From: a virus
Virus record (IMG/VR): IMGVR_UViG_3300050343_000177
Span: 1 to 64,000 of that record
Reading direction: 5' to 3' (one strand)
DNA length: 64,000 nt
The position numbers were made by a program, and so were the translations under genes. This document shows, one piece after another, positions 2,967-60,963 of the stretch. The notes beneath the pieces were generated by a model. It was not told the DNA's origin. It saw nothing but the letters and a program-made list of their open reading frames with translations, and searched no databases. Positions within the stretch are counted from its first letter, which is position 1. Each line of letters opens with the position of its first letter.

Positions 2967-3121
2967 TCCAATATTGTCGTAGGCTGACTTGCCTTCTGGA
3001 GTTGTACCTCTGCGCCTTTCTCACGATTGCGTTGCTGCTGCAGTGCAAGCCCTGAAGTAAAGCCACCTGTGCCTGGCTTCTGTTCCTGTGTGCCACGTGT
3101 AACCTTGTTATCCCAAGCCAT
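2963..3121 (-). CDS. Small hypothetical protein, coupled to the next gene
   Basis: 52 aa, Gln/Lys-rich (MAWDNKVTRGTQEQKPGTGG...), no recognised family. Start supported by AGG 7 nt upstream; stop codon overlaps the ATG of the next minus-strand gene (TGATG). Confidence 0.6.
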   Translation of the reverse strand: MAWDNKVTRGTQEQKPGTGGFTSGLALQQQRNREKGAEVQLQKASQPTTILE

Positions 3122-3128
3122 CTGACCT

Positions 3129-3248
3129 TTACGTTGCCTGGCTCTTAGCTAGAGCACTTGCACGATTGTTTGGCCGATAGCTCTCTCTATCTTCAGCACT
3201 AAGCCTACGTTTATCTACTGGTTTATTACGTAGGTTAGTTGACTTCAC
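3129..3248 (-). CDS. Small basic hypothetical protein
   Basis: 39 aa with a GTG start inside the end of the upstream gene (GTGAAGTC). Arg/Lys-rich (NLRNKPVDKRRLSAEDRE). It could instead be a frame-shifted extension of the 75-aa protein upstream. Confidence 0.4.
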   Translation of the reverse strand: MKSTNLRNKPVDKRRLSAEDRESYRPNNRASALAKSQAT

Positions 3249-3462
3249 TTATGTATACATGCCACGGTTCTTTCATTATATAACCTTTTGCACTGTATTC
3301 TATTAAAGGTTGCACTTCACCATCTACTTCAAAGCACACGACCCAGTCGCTGAACTTATCAAGCAACTCGTCTGGAATACTGTCTGCTAACTGATCGATT
3401 GCTGCTAGCTGATGTGGTGAACCTTCGTATGCTTCAAAGAACTTACGTAGGTCTATTCTCAC
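3235..3462 (-). CDS. Hypothetical protein
   Basis: 75 aa, acidic (MRIDLRKFFEAYEGSPHQ...). No recognised domain. Its ATG overlaps the stop of the upstream membrane protein, so it belongs to the same minus-strand small-gene cluster. Confidence 0.55.
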   Translation of the reverse strand: MRIDLRKFFEAYEGSPHQLAAIDQLADSIPDELLDKFSDWVVCFEVDGEVQPLIEYSAKGYIMKEPWHVYISEVN

Positions 3463-3684
3463 AGACCCACTTCCTGGTTCAATTTGTTCACTGCTTTAGC
3501 AATAGGCATCACAGTTGTCATAATCTTTTGCAGCATCTCTTTGTCAACAGCTTCGTTACGCTTCTCTAGTAGTTCAACTTTAGTGCTCGTAGCTCCTTCG
3601 TATTCTTTTGTTGTTTTGTGTTTGCTGTTGTGCATACTTAAGGCTAATAAGCAGGGCAAGCACTGGCCCGATTACATATTCCAT
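3459..3684 (-). CDS. Small membrane-anchored coiled-coil protein
   Basis: About 74 aa after removing one extra A near 3610. Residues 1-16 (MEYVIGPVLALLISLK) form a membrane segment; residues 35-70 are charged and helical (VELLEKRNEAVDKEMLQK), a likely coiled coil. This layout fits a lysis accessory (spanin- or holin-like) or virion membrane protein, but no family is recognised. Confidence 0.5.
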
Positions 3685-3718
3685 TTATAAATATCAACTG
3701 CGAAAAGTCTAGCTAAAT

Positions 3719-3933
3719 TCAACCAATCATAAGACCATCATCTGAGAGATCATCGTCTTCCCAACCTTCATCATAGATATCAGTGGAAGACTATCGTCAT
3801 CATCCTGCATCATCAGTAGTGTCATAAATGTATCTTCAGAAATTATTTCTGGCATTCCCTGTTGATTCTCATCAATCTTAAACATAATTCCATTTGCACG
3901 TAGTGTCTCTTGCACTCCGTTCTTCTGCTCCAT
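3719..3933 (-). CDS. Small acidic-tail hypothetical protein
   Basis: About 71 aa. It starts MEQKNGVQETLRANGIMFK and, after a one-base correction near 3790, ends in an acidic tail rich in Asp (DEGWEDDDLSDDG). Unrecognised. Its start overlaps the tail of the HNH reading frame. Confidence 0.45.
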
Positions 3934-4383
3934 ACGTGTCTTAAGCAGGCGTAAGGCAGTCTTTCTCCAATGCTGGGCGGCTCATACGACACACTTCGTA
4001 CCGTGCTCTCGTTAGAGCAAACCTCTGTTCGATAGTAAGTGGGTTCATCTAATTCTTCCTCTATAAATCTTTTGTTAGAAATCCATTCTTCAATAAGCTC
4101 TTGAGCGACAATGTTATAAAACTCTTGTCGTTGAAACCATACTAACCAAGATTCAGAACCTTTGTCTGCATTACATGAGCGACAGGCAGGGATCAAGTTA
4201 CTTCTTAAGACTTGAACCTCCTTTGCTTTTTGGTTTGCAATGGTCAAGAGTGTCGGCTCTATTGCACCTGCAGTAGGCACATAGTCCTCCCCAACCGTAT
4301 TTGATCTGTTGTCTGAACTTGCGCTTGGCTGTCTTCTTCGATAGACAGTTTAGGTCGAACAAAATCTGACCAGTCTTCGGCAA
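3843..4383 (-). CDS. HNH endonuclease
   Basis: Two overlapping frames join near 4200 into one protein. The first part ends CAYCRCNRADTLDHCKPKS and the second continues NLIPACRSCNADKGSES: two zinc-binding C-x-x-C pairs with the central D-H, the McrA-like HNH fold (DH...N...C-x-x-C-N-x-x-K). Probably a homing or free-standing phage endonuclease. The end is uncertain because the last ~90 nt overlap the next gene, and a second indel may move the stop upstream. Confidence 0.75.
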
Positions 4384-4457
4384 TTCCCATAGTTGTTAGT
4401 TAGCAACTTACGAATAATCTAACTACTATGCGTCTCTTTGAGTTTTATGTAGTGACT

Positions 4458-4694
4458 TTAGTAGCACTTATTCTTTACAATAGCGTCTAGCTTGTCTTCC
4501 ATCCTTATTAAATGTGATTCCATTCTGTCCATTGCTGTTTGCAATTCATTCTTGCTTACAAAGTCTTGCACAATTCGCAGTTCAATACCATCAACACGTC
4601 TATCAAGATGACTGATTTTATTATAGATACGACTAGTAAGCACAGCAAACCCTGTACCTACTGCTATAAATACTGGAACGAATGGTTCAATCAT
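4458..4694 (-). CDS. Small membrane coiled-coil protein
   Basis: 78 aa from the internal ATG (MIEPFVPVFIAVGTGFAVL), preferred because the upstream gene ends overlapping it. Residues 4-22 form a membrane helix, residues 25-75 an amphipathic coiled coil (HLDRRVDGIELRIVQDFV). Proteins of this shape are common and uncharacterised in marine cyanophages; a lysis-accessory role is a guess. Confidence 0.6.
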   Translation of the reverse strand: MIEPFVPVFIAVGTGFAVLTSRIYNKISHLDRRVDGIELRIVQDFVSKNELQTAMDRMESHLIRMEDKLDAIVKNKCY

Positions 4695-5012
4695 CTGTAA
4701 ATGCCTTGTGTGATTTAGATATAGACCATCCGTCCATGCCGAATGTTCCTGTTTCTTTGAATGTAACTTTAGATTTTTCGACAGCATTTTCGAGGACTTC
4801 TATCGTTTCGATATAGTCCTCTATTGCTTCATCAACTATTAATGGAACAATCAGGTCTTTGGGAGCAAAGCATCCCTGACTGCAGCAACTGCTCGGTCAT
4901 CAAGAGTGTTCTCACTCTTTGCAGCAAGTGCTTCCAGTAGTTCTACAATCAATCTCTTGACGCTGGTTGAGGTCAAGAAGCTGAACAAAATTGGGCGCAA
5001 TAGTGTCAACAT
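4687..5012 (-). CDS. Putative membrane-associated small protein, holin-like N-terminus
   Basis: About 107 aa if one missing G near 4858 is restored (uncorrected stop at 4851). N-terminus MLTLLRPILFSFLTSTSVK is hydrophobic, then helical charged sequence (LIVELLEALAAKSENTLDD). Its end overlaps the next gene (ATGATTGA). Hydrophobic start, small size and proximity to another one-helix protein suggest a lysis-region gene, not proven. Confidence 0.5.
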
Positions 5013-5035
5013 TAGTCTTATGCAACTTCCTTTAC

Positions 5036-5163
5036 TATTCTACAAACTACAAAACTACGCTAGCTACGCTGCTATCTAACCCTTTCTAAAAAAAGTCCTA
5101 TAGGTATAGCAAGGGATTTAACAAACAGGTATATAGAAAACTACTGTAGTTAGCGTAGTTTCT
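5036..5163. repeat. Dispersed element copy A (inverted CTACGCT arms)
   Basis: Left arm at about 5052-5070 has two CTACGCT copies in tandem (CTACGCTAGCTACGCT) after a CTACAAACTACAAAA run. A conserved core CTAACCCTTTCTAAAAAAA follows. The right arm near 5140-5160 is the inverse (TAGTTAGCGTAGTTT). Copies B (41651) and C (55108) share the left arm and core. This copy ends 5 nt from the integrase stop codon. Confidence 0.8.
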
Positions 5164-5168
5164 ATCAA

Positions 5169-5975
5169 TTATTGCCTTACCTGACGAATTGCCTTTAACT
5201 TATCCTCCAAAGTCCAAGTTCCGTAGCGTGCTGTCATTCCATTTATTTTGTGACCTACAAGCTTAGAAATCATTGAATCCTGCAGCTCTGCTGACCTACA
5301 GCGAGTAATGAAGTTATGACGCAGTGAGTGTGCTGCTTCCCCTTTCGGTAGTTGCATTCGTTCGCTAAACATCTGACTCCAGTTCTTACCAGGGTATTGA
5401 CTGTAGTCAGTCGTTAGACGATTGACCTGTGTATAGAACTCAGGGTGAATAGGCACGTCTCTCTGTGCTCCTGGCTTGATATTTCTGACACTATTTTTCT
5501 TTATACGAAAGTAAGGTATCTGATTGTCGAAGCGTATTTCGTTTGGCAAGAGCCCTGCAATTTCACCGATGCGGAAGCCGTGATACCAGATAGCTAGGAA
5601 GATAGGGTCTGCTTGATAACGCCCGTAGTAACTGAAGGGTCTCACTGGATACTCTTTACCCAAGCGGTTGTAATCAGTATTTAATTTAATCTTTTTACTT
5701 GCCTTACTCCAGTAGTTAGGCACATCAATAATCTCATCTTCTGTTGCCATATTCCAGATACCTGTCAGCAGGCTCAACCTCCTGCGTAATGTCTCAGGAG
5801 AAAGGGTGCCTATCGGCTTAAGCTGAGACTTCCAATAACGATTGACAGTCATACGGTCAATGTCATGCACGTCAACATCAGCTATTGGCTTAGCTGCTTT
5901 AAGCCAGCACTTGAATGTTGAGTCACGGATGTCCTGCATGTCGCGAACATCTAAGAGCAATTGAGAGACTTTCAT
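5169..5975 (-). CDS. int: Tyrosine site-specific recombinase (integrase)
   Basis: 268 aa. N-terminal SAM-like core-binding domain (residues 1-95, DRMTVNRYWKSQLKPIG...RRRLSLLTGIWN) and C-terminal catalytic domain (about 115-268). Visible catalytic residues: Arg in GFRIGEIAGL, His-x-x-Arg in HSLRHNF, the second His in VGHK and the tyrosine nucleophile in ARYG. Short compared with lambda Int (no arm-binding domain). A tRNA-Ser-like attP candidate lies about 70 nt upstream of its start, as in integrase-bearing cyanopodoviruses. It implies a capacity for lysogeny or for transposition between host tRNA sites. Confidence 0.92.
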   Translation of the reverse strand: MKVSQLLLDVRDMQDIRDSTFKCWLKAAKPIADVDVHDIDRMTVNRYWKSQLKPIGTLSPETLRRRLSLLTGIWNMATEDEIIDVPNYWSKASKKIKLNTDYNRLGKEYPVRPFSYYGRYQADPIFLAIWYHGFRIGEIAGLLPNEIRFDNQIPYFRIKKNSVRNIKPGAQRDVPIHPEFYTQVNRLTTDYSQYPGKNWSQMFSERMQLPKGEAAHSLRHNFITRCRSAELQDSMISKLVGHKINGMTARYGTWTLEDKLKAIRQVRQ

Positions 5976-6013
5976 TGTGTATTCGGGTTATAAGCAACGC
6001 CAATACATATCTA

Positions 6014-6042
6014 ACAAAAAACCCCACCGTTAGGTGAGGTTT
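6014..6042 (-). terminator. Terminator upstream of the integrase gene
   Basis: On the minus strand CCTCACCTAACGGTGGGG forms a 7-bp stem followed by TTTTTT. It sits between attP and int and would block read-through from the tail genes into int. Confidence 0.75.
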
Positions 6043-6043
6043 A

Positions 6044-6070
6044 AGCTAGAAAACGGAGAGGGAGGGATTC
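6044..6070 (-). other. attP: Candidate attP: 3' end of a tRNA-Ser gene
   Basis: Read on the minus strand, CGAATCCCTCCCTCTCCG followed by TTTT matches the T-loop, T-stem and acceptor (CCTCTCC plus discriminator G) of a bacterial tRNA-Ser, but no 5' half of a tRNA is present. A partial tRNA 3' end next to an integrase is the usual phage attachment site; integration would restore the host tRNA. Confidence 0.6.
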
Positions 6071-6189
6071 GCTCCTTCCGTTATTAGCGTTGTAACCAAA
6101 CTATAGCCCCTAATTGTCACTCAATCAATCAGTTGTGCTTATCAATCAAGGCTAAAGTTTTCCACAGTCCACGCCTTTCGCTCATTTAC

Positions 6190-6401
6190 CTATATTCCGA
6201 CTAATTCTACAATTTTGCTGGGATCTTTTTTGTCTCTTAATATAATATCATTATCTTCTTTTTTAGCTCTTAAAAATAAGCTCATTGCTTTTCTAAAAGC
6301 AATTAACTTGTTCGTCTCTGGGTGTTTTTCATGTATTCATCCAGAGCTTCGAACATGTCGCCGTCCATTCTTCCTTCGAATCTATGGGTGTTTGTTGTCA
6401 T
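6190..6401 (-). CDS. Small hypothetical protein
   Basis: About 70 aa after restoring one C in a CCC run near 6320: starts MTTNTHRFEGRMDGDMFEA, continues KNTPETNKLIAFRKAM and ends VELVGI. Helical and charged; no family recognised. On the opposite strand the same stretch shows an open frame with no support. Confidence 0.5.
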
Positions 6402-6504
6402 TTCGCTTGTCTGGTGTATGTAATTTTATCTTAACCAATTAATAAATAATACTGTCCTTCTATTACTTACCGATAAAAGGAGAGATGTTATTTAGTAATA
6501 GTAT

Positions 6505-6849
6505 CTAAGCAAATACACGATAAGGGGTGCTAGGTGTGACTTCAAATGCTTCCCAACCTTCAGGTGAATCCCCTAGATAATTGATATGAAAACCGTCTAG
6601 TGTCGTTGGAGCGACGGTCTCATTACCGTCTTCATCCCATTCACCCCCAACTGTAATTGTTCCTGTGACATCAATCGCATGGTTATGGCTATATGCCCGT
6701 AGTTGTTCTGATTCGTTGCCATCTTGATCAGTGACAGTTATCATAAATCCAGCAGTACGAGCAGCATCGAGCCAGGTTTCTTCATCAGTAAACCGGAGAA
6801 AAGGTCCTGGTGCTGGTGTGGTTTCGAGTAGTTCTAGTTCTTCAGTCAT
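6505..6849 (-). CDS. Hypothetical protein near tail genes
   Basis: 114 aa, acidic, beta-rich composition (ITVTDQDGNESEQ, GTITVGGEWDEDGNE). Lies two genes downstream of the tail adhesin on the same strand, which suggests a tail or fibre-associated role; not recognised. Confidence 0.6.
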   Translation of the reverse strand: MTEELELLETTPAPGPFLRFTDEETWLDAARTAGFMITVTDQDGNESEQLRAYSHNHAIDVTGTITVGGEWDEDGNETVAPTTLDGFHINYLGDSPEGWEAFEVTPSTPYRVFA

Positions 6850-6866
6850 TATTTTAATTCTGTGAA

Positions 6867-7040
6867 TTAATCTTCTTCAATTGTAAAGACATAGCCAAGC
6901 TCTTGAGCACGGGCTTTGGCTTCTTGTTCGTTATCGAATTGTTCGATGTTTGGTTGGCCTGATTCAAATGCACTGCCGTGCTCTAGTTCAATGTAGTGAA
7001 CCGCATCAGGTCCGTGGCATACGTAATAGGTGTTGTTCAT
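6867..7040 (-). CDS. Small hypothetical protein
   Basis: 57 aa (MNNTYYVCHGPDAVHYIE...ELGYVFTIEED). Compact acidic protein, four nt downstream of the adhesin gene on the same strand. Not recognised. Confidence 0.6.
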   Translation of the reverse strand: MNNTYYVCHGPDAVHYIELEHGSAFESGQPNIEQFDNEQEAKARAQELGYVFTIEED

Positions 7041-7044
7041 AGGG

Positions 7045-8397
7045 TTAAGCGTTGTAAGAGATCGTCCAACCCTTATTGATCAGGTTGGTGTAAGCAGTAT
7101 TAGCAGCAGTAGACCAAGTAGTTTTGGCTGCATTAGTGCCGTGGTTGATGCCAAGTGAGATGTTAGAAGCACCGTTCGTATCCAGACTGATAAGTATATT
7201 CTCAATTGATTGTGCAGTTAGGGCACAGCTCGTCCAAGCACTTTTAAATGCGTTAGCACTAAGTGTTCCCGTCGCGTCAAACATATTGGCGGGAAAGCTG
7301 CTAAGCCCGGAACAATGGTACCAGCCGCGGAAAAAGCGCGTCCCACTAGAGGTATCGATCTGGGGGAAGCTGCTAAGCCCGGAACAGCCGTTCCAGGCAC
7401 TGCTGAAGATCGTCCCACTAGAGGTATCGATCATGGGGAAGCTGCTAAGCCCGGAACAGTTTTGCCAGGCGTTGTTGAAGCTTGTCCCACTAGAGGTATC
7501 GATCATGGGGAAGCTGCTAAGCCCGGAACAGCCGTTCCAGGCGCTGACGAAGCTCGTCCCACTACCGGTATCGATCAGGGGGAAGCTGGTGAGGCTTGAA
7601 CAGTCGCGCCACGCAATGTAAAAGCTCGTAACCCCGCTCGTCACATCAAATGGACATACAAACGATGTCATGTTGTCAGCGCCACGCCAAGCGTCTCCTA
7701 GATTCGTGCCTAAATCAGCTTCACCACTAATGGCAACAGAAGTAATCTGATCTACATCTGCACTAACATTATTAAAGTATGGCCTATAAGTATTATCGCT
7801 ATTAACAAGAATGGTGTAATCACCAGCAGTATAAGTGTGAGATAACGTGCTAGAAGTGCTCGACTCGTTGTTACCGTCGCCCCAGTCAACAGTGTAATCA
7901 ACTGCTCCAGTGGATCTTAGGTTAAACGTACCTCCAGCACTTGTAATGCCGTAAGTAATGTCTGATCTAAATGGATTTAGATCTAAACCACCATTTCCAT
8001 GCTTAACCTTTTTAATCTGTTTATCACTATAGTCGTAGTAATAATCATCGTAGTTAACTAAAGCATATAATTCTGTTTTAGGGCATACTAGTATTCTCCT
8101 AATTCCACCGTCACCTTGATTCTTAAATATGACATTAAAGGTAGGTTCATTATTGTTGTCAGCGATAATCTTTAATAGAACATTAGCTTCACAACTCACC
8201 ACAACATAGGAGTCACGATATGCGATCAATGCACATCCTGTGTACGTAACTTTATCGTATGATTGATTCCACCATCGTTTGATTTTTGTATGGCTATGCA
8301 AATAAGGAGCAGGAGGTGCAATTGTGAACTCAGTATTCCCATCGCTTTTTATTAGCGAGTTATATCCATTTAATATTGCTACGGTCATTTTTACCAA
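7045..8397 (-). CDS. Tail adhesin-like protein with PKD-like and BspA-type (DUF285) repeats
   Basis: 450 aa. Residues about 160-215 resemble a PKD/immunoglobulin-like module (VDWGDGNNESS...LSHTYTAGDYTI). Residues 240-380 are BspA-family repeats of about 24 aa (AWNGCSGLSSFPMIDTSSGT), four of them nearly identical. BspA/DUF285 repeats occur in surface proteins that bind ligands. Position next to the tail spikes makes a receptor-binding or host-range role likely. The repeats are identical enough at DNA level to change copy number by recombination. Confidence 0.75.
   Translation of the reverse strand: MVKMTVAILNGYNSLIKSDGNTEFTIAPPAPYLHSHTKIKRWWNQSYDKVTYTGCALIAYRDSYVVVSCEANVLLKIIADNNNEPTFNVIFKNQGDGGIRRILVCPKTELYALVNYDDYYYDYSDKQIKKVKHGNGGLDLNPFRSDITYGITSAGGTFNLRSTGAVDYTVDWGDGNNESSTSSTLSHTYTAGDYTILVNSDNTYRPYFNNVSADVDQITSVAISGEADLGTNLGDAWRGADNMTSFVCPFDVTSGVTSFYIAWRDCSSLTSFPLIDTGSGTSFVSAWNGCSGLSSFPMIDTSSGTSFNNAWQNCSGLSSFPMIDTSSGTIFSSAWNGCSGLSSFPQIDTSSGTRFFRGWYHCSGLSSFPANMFDATGTLSANAFKSAWTSCALTAQSIENILISLDTNGASNISLGINHGTNAAKTTWSTAANTAYTNLINKGWTISYNA
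7290..7610. repeat. 72-bp tandem repeat inside the adhesin gene
   Basis: The unit GAAGCTGCTAAGCCCGGAAC recurs at 72-nt spacing (about 7290, 7362, 7434, 7506, and a diverged copy at 7578). Each unit encodes one 24-residue BspA repeat. Confidence 0.85.
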
Positions 8398-8488
8398 ACA
8401 AACACCTTTACTGTTATTATTTTAACTATTAACTAGTAACTATTAACTATTACTTGCTGCCTTGCTAGCTGCTTTAGCTCTAGAAATA

Positions 8489-8650
8489 TTAGGTGTCACG
8501 TTTTTGTCCTCTCTTAGATGCTGTCTGCTTTTTAGCATCAGTAGCATTCTTTTCTTTTGGACTCAGATTGCTCCAAACTTTTTAGGTAGGTAACGTTTGG
8601 TTGAACCATCAGTTGTCCCTATCAGTAGACCCCTTTAGTTTTCCACAGGT
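8489..8650 (-). CDS. DUF5872-like C-terminal half (frame-disrupted)
   Basis: With two small frame corrections the minus strand reads LWKTKGSTDRDN, TKRYLPKKVWSNLSPKEKN and ends GQKRDT. This repeats the second half of the gene immediately upstream (GERYLPKKKRDAMSDKDY). It is either a second truncated DUF5872 gene or, if the TGA at 8650 is an error, a C-terminal extension of it. Confidence 0.5.
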
Positions 8651-9021
8651 CAGTCAGGTTGCTTGCTGTACTGCTTACCTTGAGCAGTGTCGCGGCGTTT
8701 CTTGGCCGAGGTTCTGGCGTAGTCTTTATCCGACATTGCATCACGCTTTTTCTTAGGCAGATAGCGTTCGCCAGTAGCGCCTTTGCCTTCGGTGCTGTTC
8801 TTACCAGACTTAGTGCCCCAGTCTTCCTTGGTCCACTTCTTCATCTTGTTGGATTTAGCAGATGGCTTCTTACCTTCGTAAGTACCGCCGCCGTCTTTAT
8901 AAATCTTGGTTGCTAGTTGCATTGCACGAGCAGAGTGCTTACCACCCATACGTGCCTTAGCTTTTGATTTAGCAGCAGCCCACTTAGCGGGATCTTTCTT
9001 CTTTGCAATACCGTCAGCCAT
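8650..9021 (-). CDS. DUF5872 family protein
   Basis: 123 aa, Lys-rich. Carries the family pattern: WAAAKSKAKARMGGKHSARA, the central NKMKKWTKEDWGTKSGK and RYLPKKKRDAMSDKDYA. DUF5872 is found in large viruses and cyanophages; function unknown, and the charge suggests nucleic-acid binding. Its ATG overlaps the stop of the small gene upstream (TAATG). Confidence 0.8.
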   Translation of the reverse strand: MADGIAKKKDPAKWAAAKSKAKARMGGKHSARAMQLATKIYKDGGGTYEGKKPSAKSNKMKKWTKEDWGTKSGKNSTEGKGATGERYLPKKKRDAMSDKDYARTSAKKRRDTAQGKQYSKQPD

Positions 9022-9115
9022 TACTTCTTACCTTTGCTGTGTTTACAACCGCATTTTTTCTTTGCGATCTCTTTTTTCTGTTGAAAAATTCTTGAGCCTT
9101 TTGTTTCTTAGACAT
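9021..9115 (-). CDS. Tiny Lys/Cys-rich protein
   Basis: About 31 aa after a one-base correction: MSKKQKAQEFF...KKCGCKHSKGKK. The C-G-C-K-H cluster could bind metal. Overlaps the DUF5872 start (TAATG), indicating translational coupling. Confidence 0.45.
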
Positions 9116-9117
9116 AA

Positions 9118-9291
9118 TTAAATTATATCTGCGTTAGAGAAGGGAATTATTCTGCCTTGAGCGGCAGCCACATCACGACGACGTTGGCGGTCCATAATAG
9201 AGACCATTCGTTGATTCTCTTGTGAATCTTTTTGTATTTGTTGTTCTAATTTTGCGAATAGGTCTTCGCCTGCCATTCGTTGTTTAGACAT
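9118..9291 (-). CDS. Small hypothetical protein with N-terminal QRMAG motif
   Basis: 57 aa, MSKQRMAGEDLFAKLEQQ..., helical and Gln-rich. Shares the QRMAG start with the next gene upstream, whose stop it overlaps. Probable minor virion or scaffold-type protein; unrecognised. Confidence 0.55.
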   Translation of the reverse strand: MSKQRMAGEDLFAKLEQQIQKDSQENQRMVSIMDRQRRRDVAAAQGRIIPFSNADII

Positions 9292-52872: not shown

Positions 52873-52881
52873 TGCTTTATT

Positions 52882-52953
52882 GGGGCATTAGTGAAACGGT
52901 TATCACAATAGATTGTCTATCTATTATTAGCAGTTCGAATCTGCTATGCCTCG
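52882..52953 (+). tRNA. tRNA-Asp (GTC)
   Basis: 72 nt cloverleaf: acceptor GGGGCAT/ATGCCTC (one G-U), D-stem GTGA/TCAC, anticodon stem ATAGA/TCTAT with loop TTGTCTA (anticodon GTC), variable TATT, T-arm AGCAG TTCGAAT CTGCT, discriminator G. CCA is not encoded. All stems pair. Phage tRNAs supply codons used more by the phage. Confidence 0.92.
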
Positions 52954-52971
52954 TTATAAGTACTACTGAAT

Positions 52972-59874: not shown

Positions 59875-60963
59875 ATGTCTTCAACTATTCTCACGCCCAG
59901 GTCTAATCCCCTTAAGGATACCTGGGATTCTTATCTCAACTGGGTCACAAGCACTAACAATCGTCTTTATGTCGGACTCTTCGGCACATTGATGATCCCT
60001 TGCTTGCTTGCGGCCACTACTTGCTTCATCATTGCTTTCATCGCTGCTCCACCTGTGGACATCGATGGTATTCGCGAAGGTGTCTCTGGCTCTCTTCTGT
60101 GGGGTAACAACATCATCTCTGGTGCTGTTGTCCCTAGCAGCAATGCAATCGGTCTTCATATGTATCCGATTTGGGAGGCAGCATCTCTCGATGAATGGCT
60201 CTACAACGGTGGTTGCTATCAGCTAATTATTTTCCACTTCCTTATTGGAGTCTGGTGTTACGCCGGACGTGAGTGGGAACTTTCCTATCGCTTAGGTATG
60301 CGTCCTTGGATCTTTGTAGCTTTTACTGCACCTTGTGCCGCTGCTACTGCTGTATTCCTTATCTATCCTATCGGTCAAGGTTCATTCTCCGATGGCATGC
60401 CTCTTGGTATCTCCGGCACTTTTAACTATATGTTGGTTTTCCAAGCAGAGCACAACATCTTGATGAACCCTCTACATATGCTCGGCGTAGCTGGAGTATT
60501 TGGAGGCGCACTGTTCTCTGCAATGCATGGATCACTTGTTACCTCTTCACTTGTTCGTGAAACGACTGAATTCGAATCACAAAACAATGGCTACAAGTTC
60601 GGTCAAGAACAAGAGTCGTATAATATCGTTGCAGCGCATGGTTACTTCGGTCGCCTAATCTTCCAATACGCAAGCTTCAATAACTCTCGTTCACTTCACT
60701 TCTTCTTGGCAGCATTCCCTGTTGTTGGTATCTGGTGTGCAGCACTGGGCGTTAGCACAATGGCGGCAAACTTGAATGGACTGAACTTCAATCAGTCAAT
60801 TCTTGACACTCAAGATCATGTTATCCCTACTTGGGCTGACATTCTGAATCGTGCCAATCTTGGCTTTGAAGTGATCCATGAAAGGAACGCCCACAACTTC
60901 CCGCTCGATCTTGCGTCAACTAGCGCCACACCTGTGGCCTTGATTGCACCATCTATTGGTTAA
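59875..60963 (+). CDS. psbA: Photosystem II D1 protein
   Basis: 362 aa, intact, no intron. Five-helix D1 with all key residues (cyanobacterial number plus 3 here): Y161 (FLIYPIG), D170 (SFSDG), E189/H190 (FQAEHN), H198 and H215, H272, H332/E333, D342 and A344, then a 15-residue C-terminal extension ([15 protein letters not shown]). E130 (AGREWELS) is the high-light D1:2 type. Asn replaces His at position 195 (ILMNPLH). It keeps photosynthetic electron flow going during infection. A hairpin terminator follows. Confidence 0.98.

Follow-up and report, generated by a model that had tools for sequence, protein, structure and literature searches.

A viral gene for a putative host-binding protein with a 72-bp tandem repeat that differs in copy number among its relatives

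Can a phage vary the protein by which it may recognize its host through the gain, loss and exchange of short gene modules? The question is raised by a repeat-containing gene at positions 7045 to 8397 (minus strand) of the window, a 64,000-nt stretch (positions 1 to 64,000) of the 80,431-base IMG/VR virus record IMGVR_UViG_3300050343_000177. The initial annotation of this DNA described the gene as an adhesin with a 72-bp repeat able to change copy number. Our reading, to which we assign a probability of roughly 0.7, is that it encodes a BspA-like receptor-binding adhesin of the virion, most likely of the tail, that is varied by recombination between repeats and by selection on the binding residues. 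Judged by its genes, the virus is a psbA-carrying cyanophage, because the window encodes the photosystem II D1 protein (psbA; 59875-60963, plus strand; E value 2.7e-181), an S-EIVl-like terminase and a structural protein matched in S-EIVl only. Synechococcus phage S-EIVl was the top match of the terminase among the isolate matches listed (58.9% identity), and the best DNA matches of psbA (~77%) were in Synechococcus phages.

The gene and its parts are given below; L-numbers (L002, L021 and so on) are our labels for relative loci fetched from sequence records.

7045..8397, minus strand: repeat adhesin gene, 450 amino acids (aa) from TTG at 8397; relatives in viral contigs
7984..8388, minus strand: N-terminal domain, residues 4-138; 51% identical in L021; low model confidence
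7804..7914, minus strand: PKD/immunoglobulin (Ig)-like stretch, residues 162-198; under the Pfam cut-off (18.2 versus 27 bits)
7657..7728, minus strand: most diverged repeat unit, SGEADLGTNLGDAWRGADNMTSFV
7579..7650, minus strand: diverged repeat unit, FDVTSGVTSFYIAWRDCSSLTSFP
7507..7578, minus strand: 72-bp unit 1 of the near-identical array; codons 9-16 at 7531-7554
7435..7506, minus strand: 72-bp unit 2; codons 9-16 at 7459-7482
7363..7434, minus strand: 72-bp unit 3; codons 9-16 at 7387-7410
7291..7362, minus strand: 72-bp unit 4; codons 9-16 at 7315-7338
7048..7290, minus strand: conserved C-terminal part, residues 370-450, ...LTAQSIENIL...AANTAYTNLINKGWTI...; model helices at residues 392-405 and 427-438

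An ATG three codons into the open reading frame (ORF), at 8388, would give a protein of 447 aa. Tandem Repeats Finder detected the array at 7291-7588 (period 72, 4.1 copies, 84% matches, score 414), which confirms the four-unit tandem repeat described initially. The four units (7291-7578) are 79-90% identical to each other in DNA, while the unit at 7579-7650 is 54-61% and that at 7657-7728 31-39% identical to them; the longest exact direct repeat within the array is 48 nt. The unit consensus is LIDTSSGTNFxxAWxxCSSLTSFP (24 residues), and codons 9-16 hold most of the variable positions of each unit. The description of the units as almost identical holds for the framework codons, but not for the whole unit, as the differences are concentrated at four positions. 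Among the six unit pairs, the 17 framework codons showed 3 nonsynonymous and 9 synonymous differences in 102 comparisons, whereas the four hypervariable codons showed 21 and 1, respectively, in 24; intermediate positions 1, 9 and 13 had 13 nonsynonymous differences in 18 comparisons. The initial annotation was silent on this concentration of variation at few positions per unit, which is found in the window and in many related arrays. The array (7291-7578) has a G+C content of 57%, compared to 43% for the whole window and 40% for the gene outside the array, which would fit a separate origin of the units.

The predicted model of the window protein is confident over the repeats (blocks of 77-95) and poor at the N-terminus, with a mean predicted local distance difference test score (pLDDT) of 77.6. 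It matched the leucine-rich repeat (LRR) proteins TpLRR (Z 16.2, root mean square deviation [rmsd] 3.8, 209 residues aligned), RPP1 LRR (Z 16.1, rmsd 3.6, 248 aligned) and BACOVA_04585 (Z 15.8, rmsd 3.4, 242 aligned), the scores of TpLRR and BACOVA_04585 being tied with those of other LRR proteins such as Nogo receptor chains. Foldseek against viral models returned 38 matches, topped by proteins of S-CAM8 and S-SKS1 (51-52% identity). The repeats are thus predicted to form an LRR-type solenoid, and residues 370-450 probably form its cap. In Pfam, the window protein reached neither of the BspA-like/DUF285 cut-offs (PF03382, 25 bits; PF13306, 27.7 bits), and its matches in Pfam and NCBIfam were all below threshold, with no match to DUF285 or TIGR02167. 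Among relatives, the S-CBWM1 homologue exceeded the cut-offs for DUF285 (26.7 bits) and PKD (26.3 versus 23.5 bits), LRR_5 was matched in L138 (34.2 bits), L009 stayed just below the cut-off with 24.6 bits, and DUF285 was found at an E value of ≤0.01 in 2 of the 18 members of set A4. The term BspA-like is therefore upheld by the predicted fold and by relatives, but not by any Pfam match of the window protein itself, which is a relative rather than a formal member of the BspA-like/DUF285 repeat proteins.

Annotation and context of the homologues suggest where in the virion the protein may sit. The S-CBWM1 homologue is annotated as "putative tail protein" and has tail fibre genes nearby, and the homologues of the Nonlabens phages P12024S and P12024L are annotated as "similar to putative tail fiber protein". 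In L021, residues 4-138 of the window protein recur (51% identity) and are followed by a tail-protein-type C-terminal part. This single example points to the N-terminal domain as possibly serving virion attachment. The product is probably a host-binding surface protein; virion adhesin is the best reading, and the tail its most likely location. The tail placement made initially is hence favored by context and by the exchanged C-terminus in L021, but in S-SKS1 the gene is flanked by a capsid assembly gene on one side and by prohead protease/scaffold/major capsid genes on the other. A capsid-borne adhesin would decorate the head and bind particles or cell surfaces, and its repeats would vary for that purpose rather than for receptor choice by the tail. 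Ig-like Hoc proteins decorate phage heads, and the PKD/Ig-like domain of the window protein would suit such a role. Nevertheless, the tail fibre genes near the S-CBWM1 homologue, the L021 fusion and the P12024S/L annotations all point to the tail, and we consider a location on the capsid rather improbable.

How general the pattern of a conserved framework with few variable sites is was apparent from the relatives. Viral contigs yielded 21 loci in searches with the window protein and 28 with the conserved C-terminus, and a repeat search confirmed 460 stretches, the top 80 of which were retained. Cellular genomes contributed seven repeat loci; these were searched with one pattern versus two for the viral scan, and the rates are therefore not comparable. 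Related genes are carried by the isolates S-SKS1, S-CBWM1 and P12024S/L, and a DNA search of phage records returned short matches only, covering ≤4% of the query. The 144 loci, some of them overlapping, gave 139 repeat ORFs with 697 distinct units; the 139 ORFs comprise 101 distinct sequences by identity alone, a few of which are the same gene in overlapping loci. The genes found have between 2 and 30 units. Across the 697 units, entropy was highest at positions 11 (3.56 bits), 12 (3.48), 15 (3.29) and 16 (2.73), followed by positions 1 and 9 (2.58 bits each), while F10, W14, C17, L20, F23 and P24 were conserved at 88-97%.

Divergence at the variable sites exceeds that at silent sites of the framework. 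From 92 distinct arrays, 84 were nonredundant, and 72 of these had at least 4 units and 20 fourfold comparisons. In 67 of the 72 (sign test, 6e-15), divergence was higher at second codon positions of the hypervariable sites than at fourfold sites of the framework; the variable positions had been picked by entropy on the same units, and gene conversion acting on the framework could reduce divergence at the fourfold sites. The excess was present in all 21 arrays with fourfold divergence of <0.3 (median, 0.62 versus 0.21). Likewise, the closest unit pair per gene, chosen for a similar framework, differed in 62 genes by 173 nonsynonymous and 9 synonymous changes in 248 hypervariable codons, compared to 50 and 70, respectively, in 1,054 framework codons. 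As hypervariable second positions out-diverge framework fourfold sites, relaxed constraint alone is insufficient to explain the excess, which suggests diversifying selection; targeted mutation would also account for it. The same result bears on the idea that the array is merely a spacer, with copy number setting the length of a stalk and sequence variation reflecting relaxed constraint without binding function. A role in length only would tolerate the wide range of unit numbers, but the framework around the variable sites is conserved, and relaxed constraint should not lift second-position above fourfold divergence, unless gene conversion homogenizes the framework only. We regard a spacer as distinctly unlikely.

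Copy-number change, the central claim of the initial annotation, is supported in relatives, where unit numbers differ by whole units on near-identical backgrounds in one trio. In contigs of three metagenome numbers, 5 (L004), 4 (L006) and 3 (L010) units were detected. The cassettes of L004, written as residues 9, 11, 12, 13, 15 and 16 of each unit, are NSDAEG-DLRTNG-MNNAQN-SASANG-NFRGFQ; L006 has the same series without MNNAQN, and L010 lacks both MNNAQN and SASANG, in nested order. L004 and L010 match at 100% in the 540 bp (300 + 240 bp) that flank their arrays, and the flanks of L006 are 98.9% identical to either. L004 and L010 differ by exactly 144 bp (two units), with shared contig parts that are 99.5% (1,742 bp) identical to one side of it and 98.9% (1,402 bp) to the other, while the L006 contig is ~95 to 97% identical to both. 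In L004, direct repeats of 63 nt that match each other at 97% lie 144 bp apart, an arrangement that recombination between repeats would predict. A second case, in a less similar background, comes from the P12024S and P12024L isolates of one host, whose tail-fibre-like gene is identical over the first ~720 bp; P12024S has one 23-residue unit more (4 versus 3), by eye from the alignment. Flanks could be compared for the 90 of 101 ORFs that have both. Pairs differed in unit number in 7 of 11 cases at 90-95% flank identity, 31 of 35 at 85-90% and 58 of 60 at 80-85%.

These differences could conceivably stem from repeat collapse by assemblers, as the contigs are metagenomic and the 72-bp units similar. 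However, exact repeats in the eight arrays of the window's group reach lengths of 15-57 nt at most, which is short against usual read lengths, and the units differ in their variable codons. Furthermore, the same array was found under more than one metagenome number in cases such as L128/L135 and L069/L072, and the two isolate genomes differ as well. An assembly artefact is accordingly very unlikely.

Arrays of different phages are also mosaics of shared units. The fourth units of L003 and L004 share 99% identity, whereas the array flanks are only 66% (upstream) and 90% (downstream) identical. The window's central cassettes SVSANG, SNNAQN and ISSANG recur in L003 with their order kept, one with an altered first residue and with SASANG inserted. 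L064 and L076 have their last seven cassettes in common, in order, while the earlier cassettes differ. Units identical over 72 nt within a gene were present in 7 of the 101 ORFs, and the 30-unit array of L074 contains block duplications of cassettes. Given that units are shared across diverged flanks, whole units seem to move between phages as modules. Concerted evolution alone is disfavored, as units of the window group mostly resemble those with a like cassette in other phages more than the neighboring units of their own array. Two separate repeat ORFs, with 15 and 11 units (from 3068 and 5172 onwards), occur in one 8.3-kb stretch of a virus contig, L106.

The possibility of targeted mutation leads to reverse transcription. 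RVT_1 had no match in the window's 80,431-base record and none in 29 of the 30 records holding relatives, many of them fragments (three cellular genomes, the whole S-SKS1 and S-CBWM1 records and viral contigs, 25 in number and 5-125 kb long); the sole record with matches is a 5.9-Mb Planctomycetota metagenome-assembled genome. All four repeat-profile matches in the window's record fall inside the adhesin gene, leaving no template copy there. A diversity-generating retroelement (DGR), whose error-prone reverse transcriptase would rewrite the units from a template, is barely credible on these records: the third base of variable codons is kept in some arrays (in L108, 30 C and 6 T of 36; in L090, 62 T of 68), resembling DGR mutagenesis, which acts on AAY codons, but constant third bases follow also from young duplications under selection.

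Besides the S-SKS1 gene order, several observations weigh against a receptor-binding adhesin varied by recombination and selection. Foldseek alone found no PDB match at an E value of ≤0.001. Among the 14 listed pairs with flank identity of ≥95%, one (L046/L013) is a single contig fetched twice; of the 13 usable pairs, 8 have identical arrays and 3 differ in unit number, all within the L004/L006/L010 trio. The environmental contigs are metagenome assemblies. For the isolates, automated unit detection gave a count of 2 for P12024S as well as for P12024L, and the regions around the arrays are 87-88% identical. The window has as many units as L002, its closest relative; their three base differences over 5118-9206 (7470, 7601 and 7616) are all nonsynonymous and all in the repeat region, but only one lies at a hypervariable position and the other two elsewhere. 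The selection picture between orthologous arrays is mixed: nonsynonymous changes affected 11 of 30 variable codons versus 6 of 114 others in L117/L137, and one variable codon and none elsewhere in L083/L086, while in L034/L056 they were also common outside variable positions (25 of 133, versus 11 of 35 variable codons). The self-pair L046/L013 and the isolate difference by eye slightly lowered our confidence.

We nevertheless favor the varied virion adhesin, for which the following mechanism is proposed. From the N-terminus on, the adhesin would comprise a domain for attachment, the PKD/Ig-like stretch and an LRR-type solenoid made of 24-residue units, closed by a cap at the C-terminus. Every unit would combine a conserved framework with hypervariable residues 11, 12, 15 and 16 (1 and 9 less so), and stacking of the units would line the variable residues into one strip, presumably at the surface and facing a host receptor, with copy number setting the length of the strip. 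Homologous recombination between conserved frameworks would cause the gain, loss and swapping of whole units, which stays in frame because a unit is 72 bp, and diversifying selection would alter residues of single units. Such changes could affect host range, perhaps at the rapid rate that had been suggested initially.

Two ORFs follow the adhesin gene on the same strand.

6870..7040, minus strand: companion ORF, 57 aa, directly downstream of the adhesin gene
6505..6849, minus strand: ORF of 114 aa; phrog_18574; homologues in L021, L130, L015/L053, L035 and L105/L108

A homologue of the 57-aa companion lies within 2.5 kb of 36 of the 101 distinct repeat ORF sequences, that of S-SKS1 included. 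Its model is a predicted beta-beta-beta-alpha arrangement (pLDDT, 88.4), and it had no PHROG match at an E value of ≤0.01. A fold assignment was dropped, the best Z score being 3.2 (1zg2; rmsd 2.2, 43 aligned). Close to the adhesin gene, a protein of the Phage_integrase family is encoded at 5169-5975 (minus strand; 34.3 bits versus a cut-off of 27.1), and lysogeny in this cyanophage lineage is possible. The L002 contig (IMGVR_UViG_3300017749_000230) is clearly more diverged over 3005-5117 than over 5118-9206, which may mark a recombination boundary near 5117. A tRNA-Asp is located at 52881-52954 (plus strand).

The proposed arrangement has counterparts in other systems. The variable lymphocyte receptors of jawless vertebrates contain a varying number of LRR modules, in which a conserved framework bears hypervariable residues, and are built by somatic cassette assembly. 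The module logic is the same, but variation here is between virus genomes, not somatic; chains of these receptors were among the weak Foldseek matches of the window model. Tetart et al. reportedly described in 1996, going by the title, a host-range change of T4 through duplication of a small tail fibre adhesin domain. Likewise, a small adhesin segment changes in number in the window family; the T4 protein is a different one, and, by title, host range was measured there.

BspA-like/DUF285 proteins and PARCELs contain tandem ~25-residue units in variable number, are spread horizontally and occur in marine data (Roske et al. 2010, PMC2996958). The window family shares the tandem arrangement (24-residue units, 2-30 per gene) and, like PARCELs, combines conserved hydrophobic with variable hydrophilic residues (PMC2996958). 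In contrast to DUF285/PARCELs, its repeat is found in phage genomes, in a probable adhesin, has units of 24 residues, gives no DUF285/TIGR02167 match in the window protein and shows no dyad symmetry beyond chance: the best palindrome score of the consensus unit was reached by 43 of 500 shuffles and that of the array by 26 of 100. No inverted repeat pairs of ≥8 nt within 60 nt and no PARCEL palindromes, for which the original paper used MEME, were found. DUF285/PARCEL and BspA-family ORFs are annotated in the Vibrio jumbo phage vB_VhaM_pir03 (PMC7765460), and DUF285 proteins in the giant virus Kratosvirus quantuckense (PMC10720644). These represent a related repeat type, and the available text of both reports holds no within-gene comparison of repeat number and no selection test of repeat positions. 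The tail fibre gene of phage EfV12-phi1 has in-frame tandem duplications of variable number (PMC6365445), whereas the window array consists of 72-bp units with hypervariable residues. Tentaclins are DGR-diversified phage receptor-binding proteins with reverse transcriptase, template repeat and C-type lectin domains (PMC10743442); they share with the putative receptor-binding protein of the window the targeted variability, but for the latter neither reverse transcriptase nor template was found. A literature search of partial coverage found no paper on cyanophage LRR adhesins that vary in copy number. Beyond these systems, the present family, which is widespread among phages, couples variation in unit number with the exchange of units and with diversifying residues.

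As a tentative extension, aquatic phages may share a large LRR module repertoire that is independent of reverse transcriptase, with about four diversifying residues per unit, and may trade units via framework recombination to yield strips that recognize hosts in a combinatorial manner, similar in principle to variable lymphocyte receptors. How phages that lack a retroelement track host surfaces as these change is a question of current interest, and this family offers a case that can be read from sequence. Variable residues, unit number and unit exchange are readable from metagenomes, and the isolates allow direct tests of binding and host range. Protein engineers, too, would be interested in a repeat scaffold that is made by phages and comes with a natural library of variable residues.
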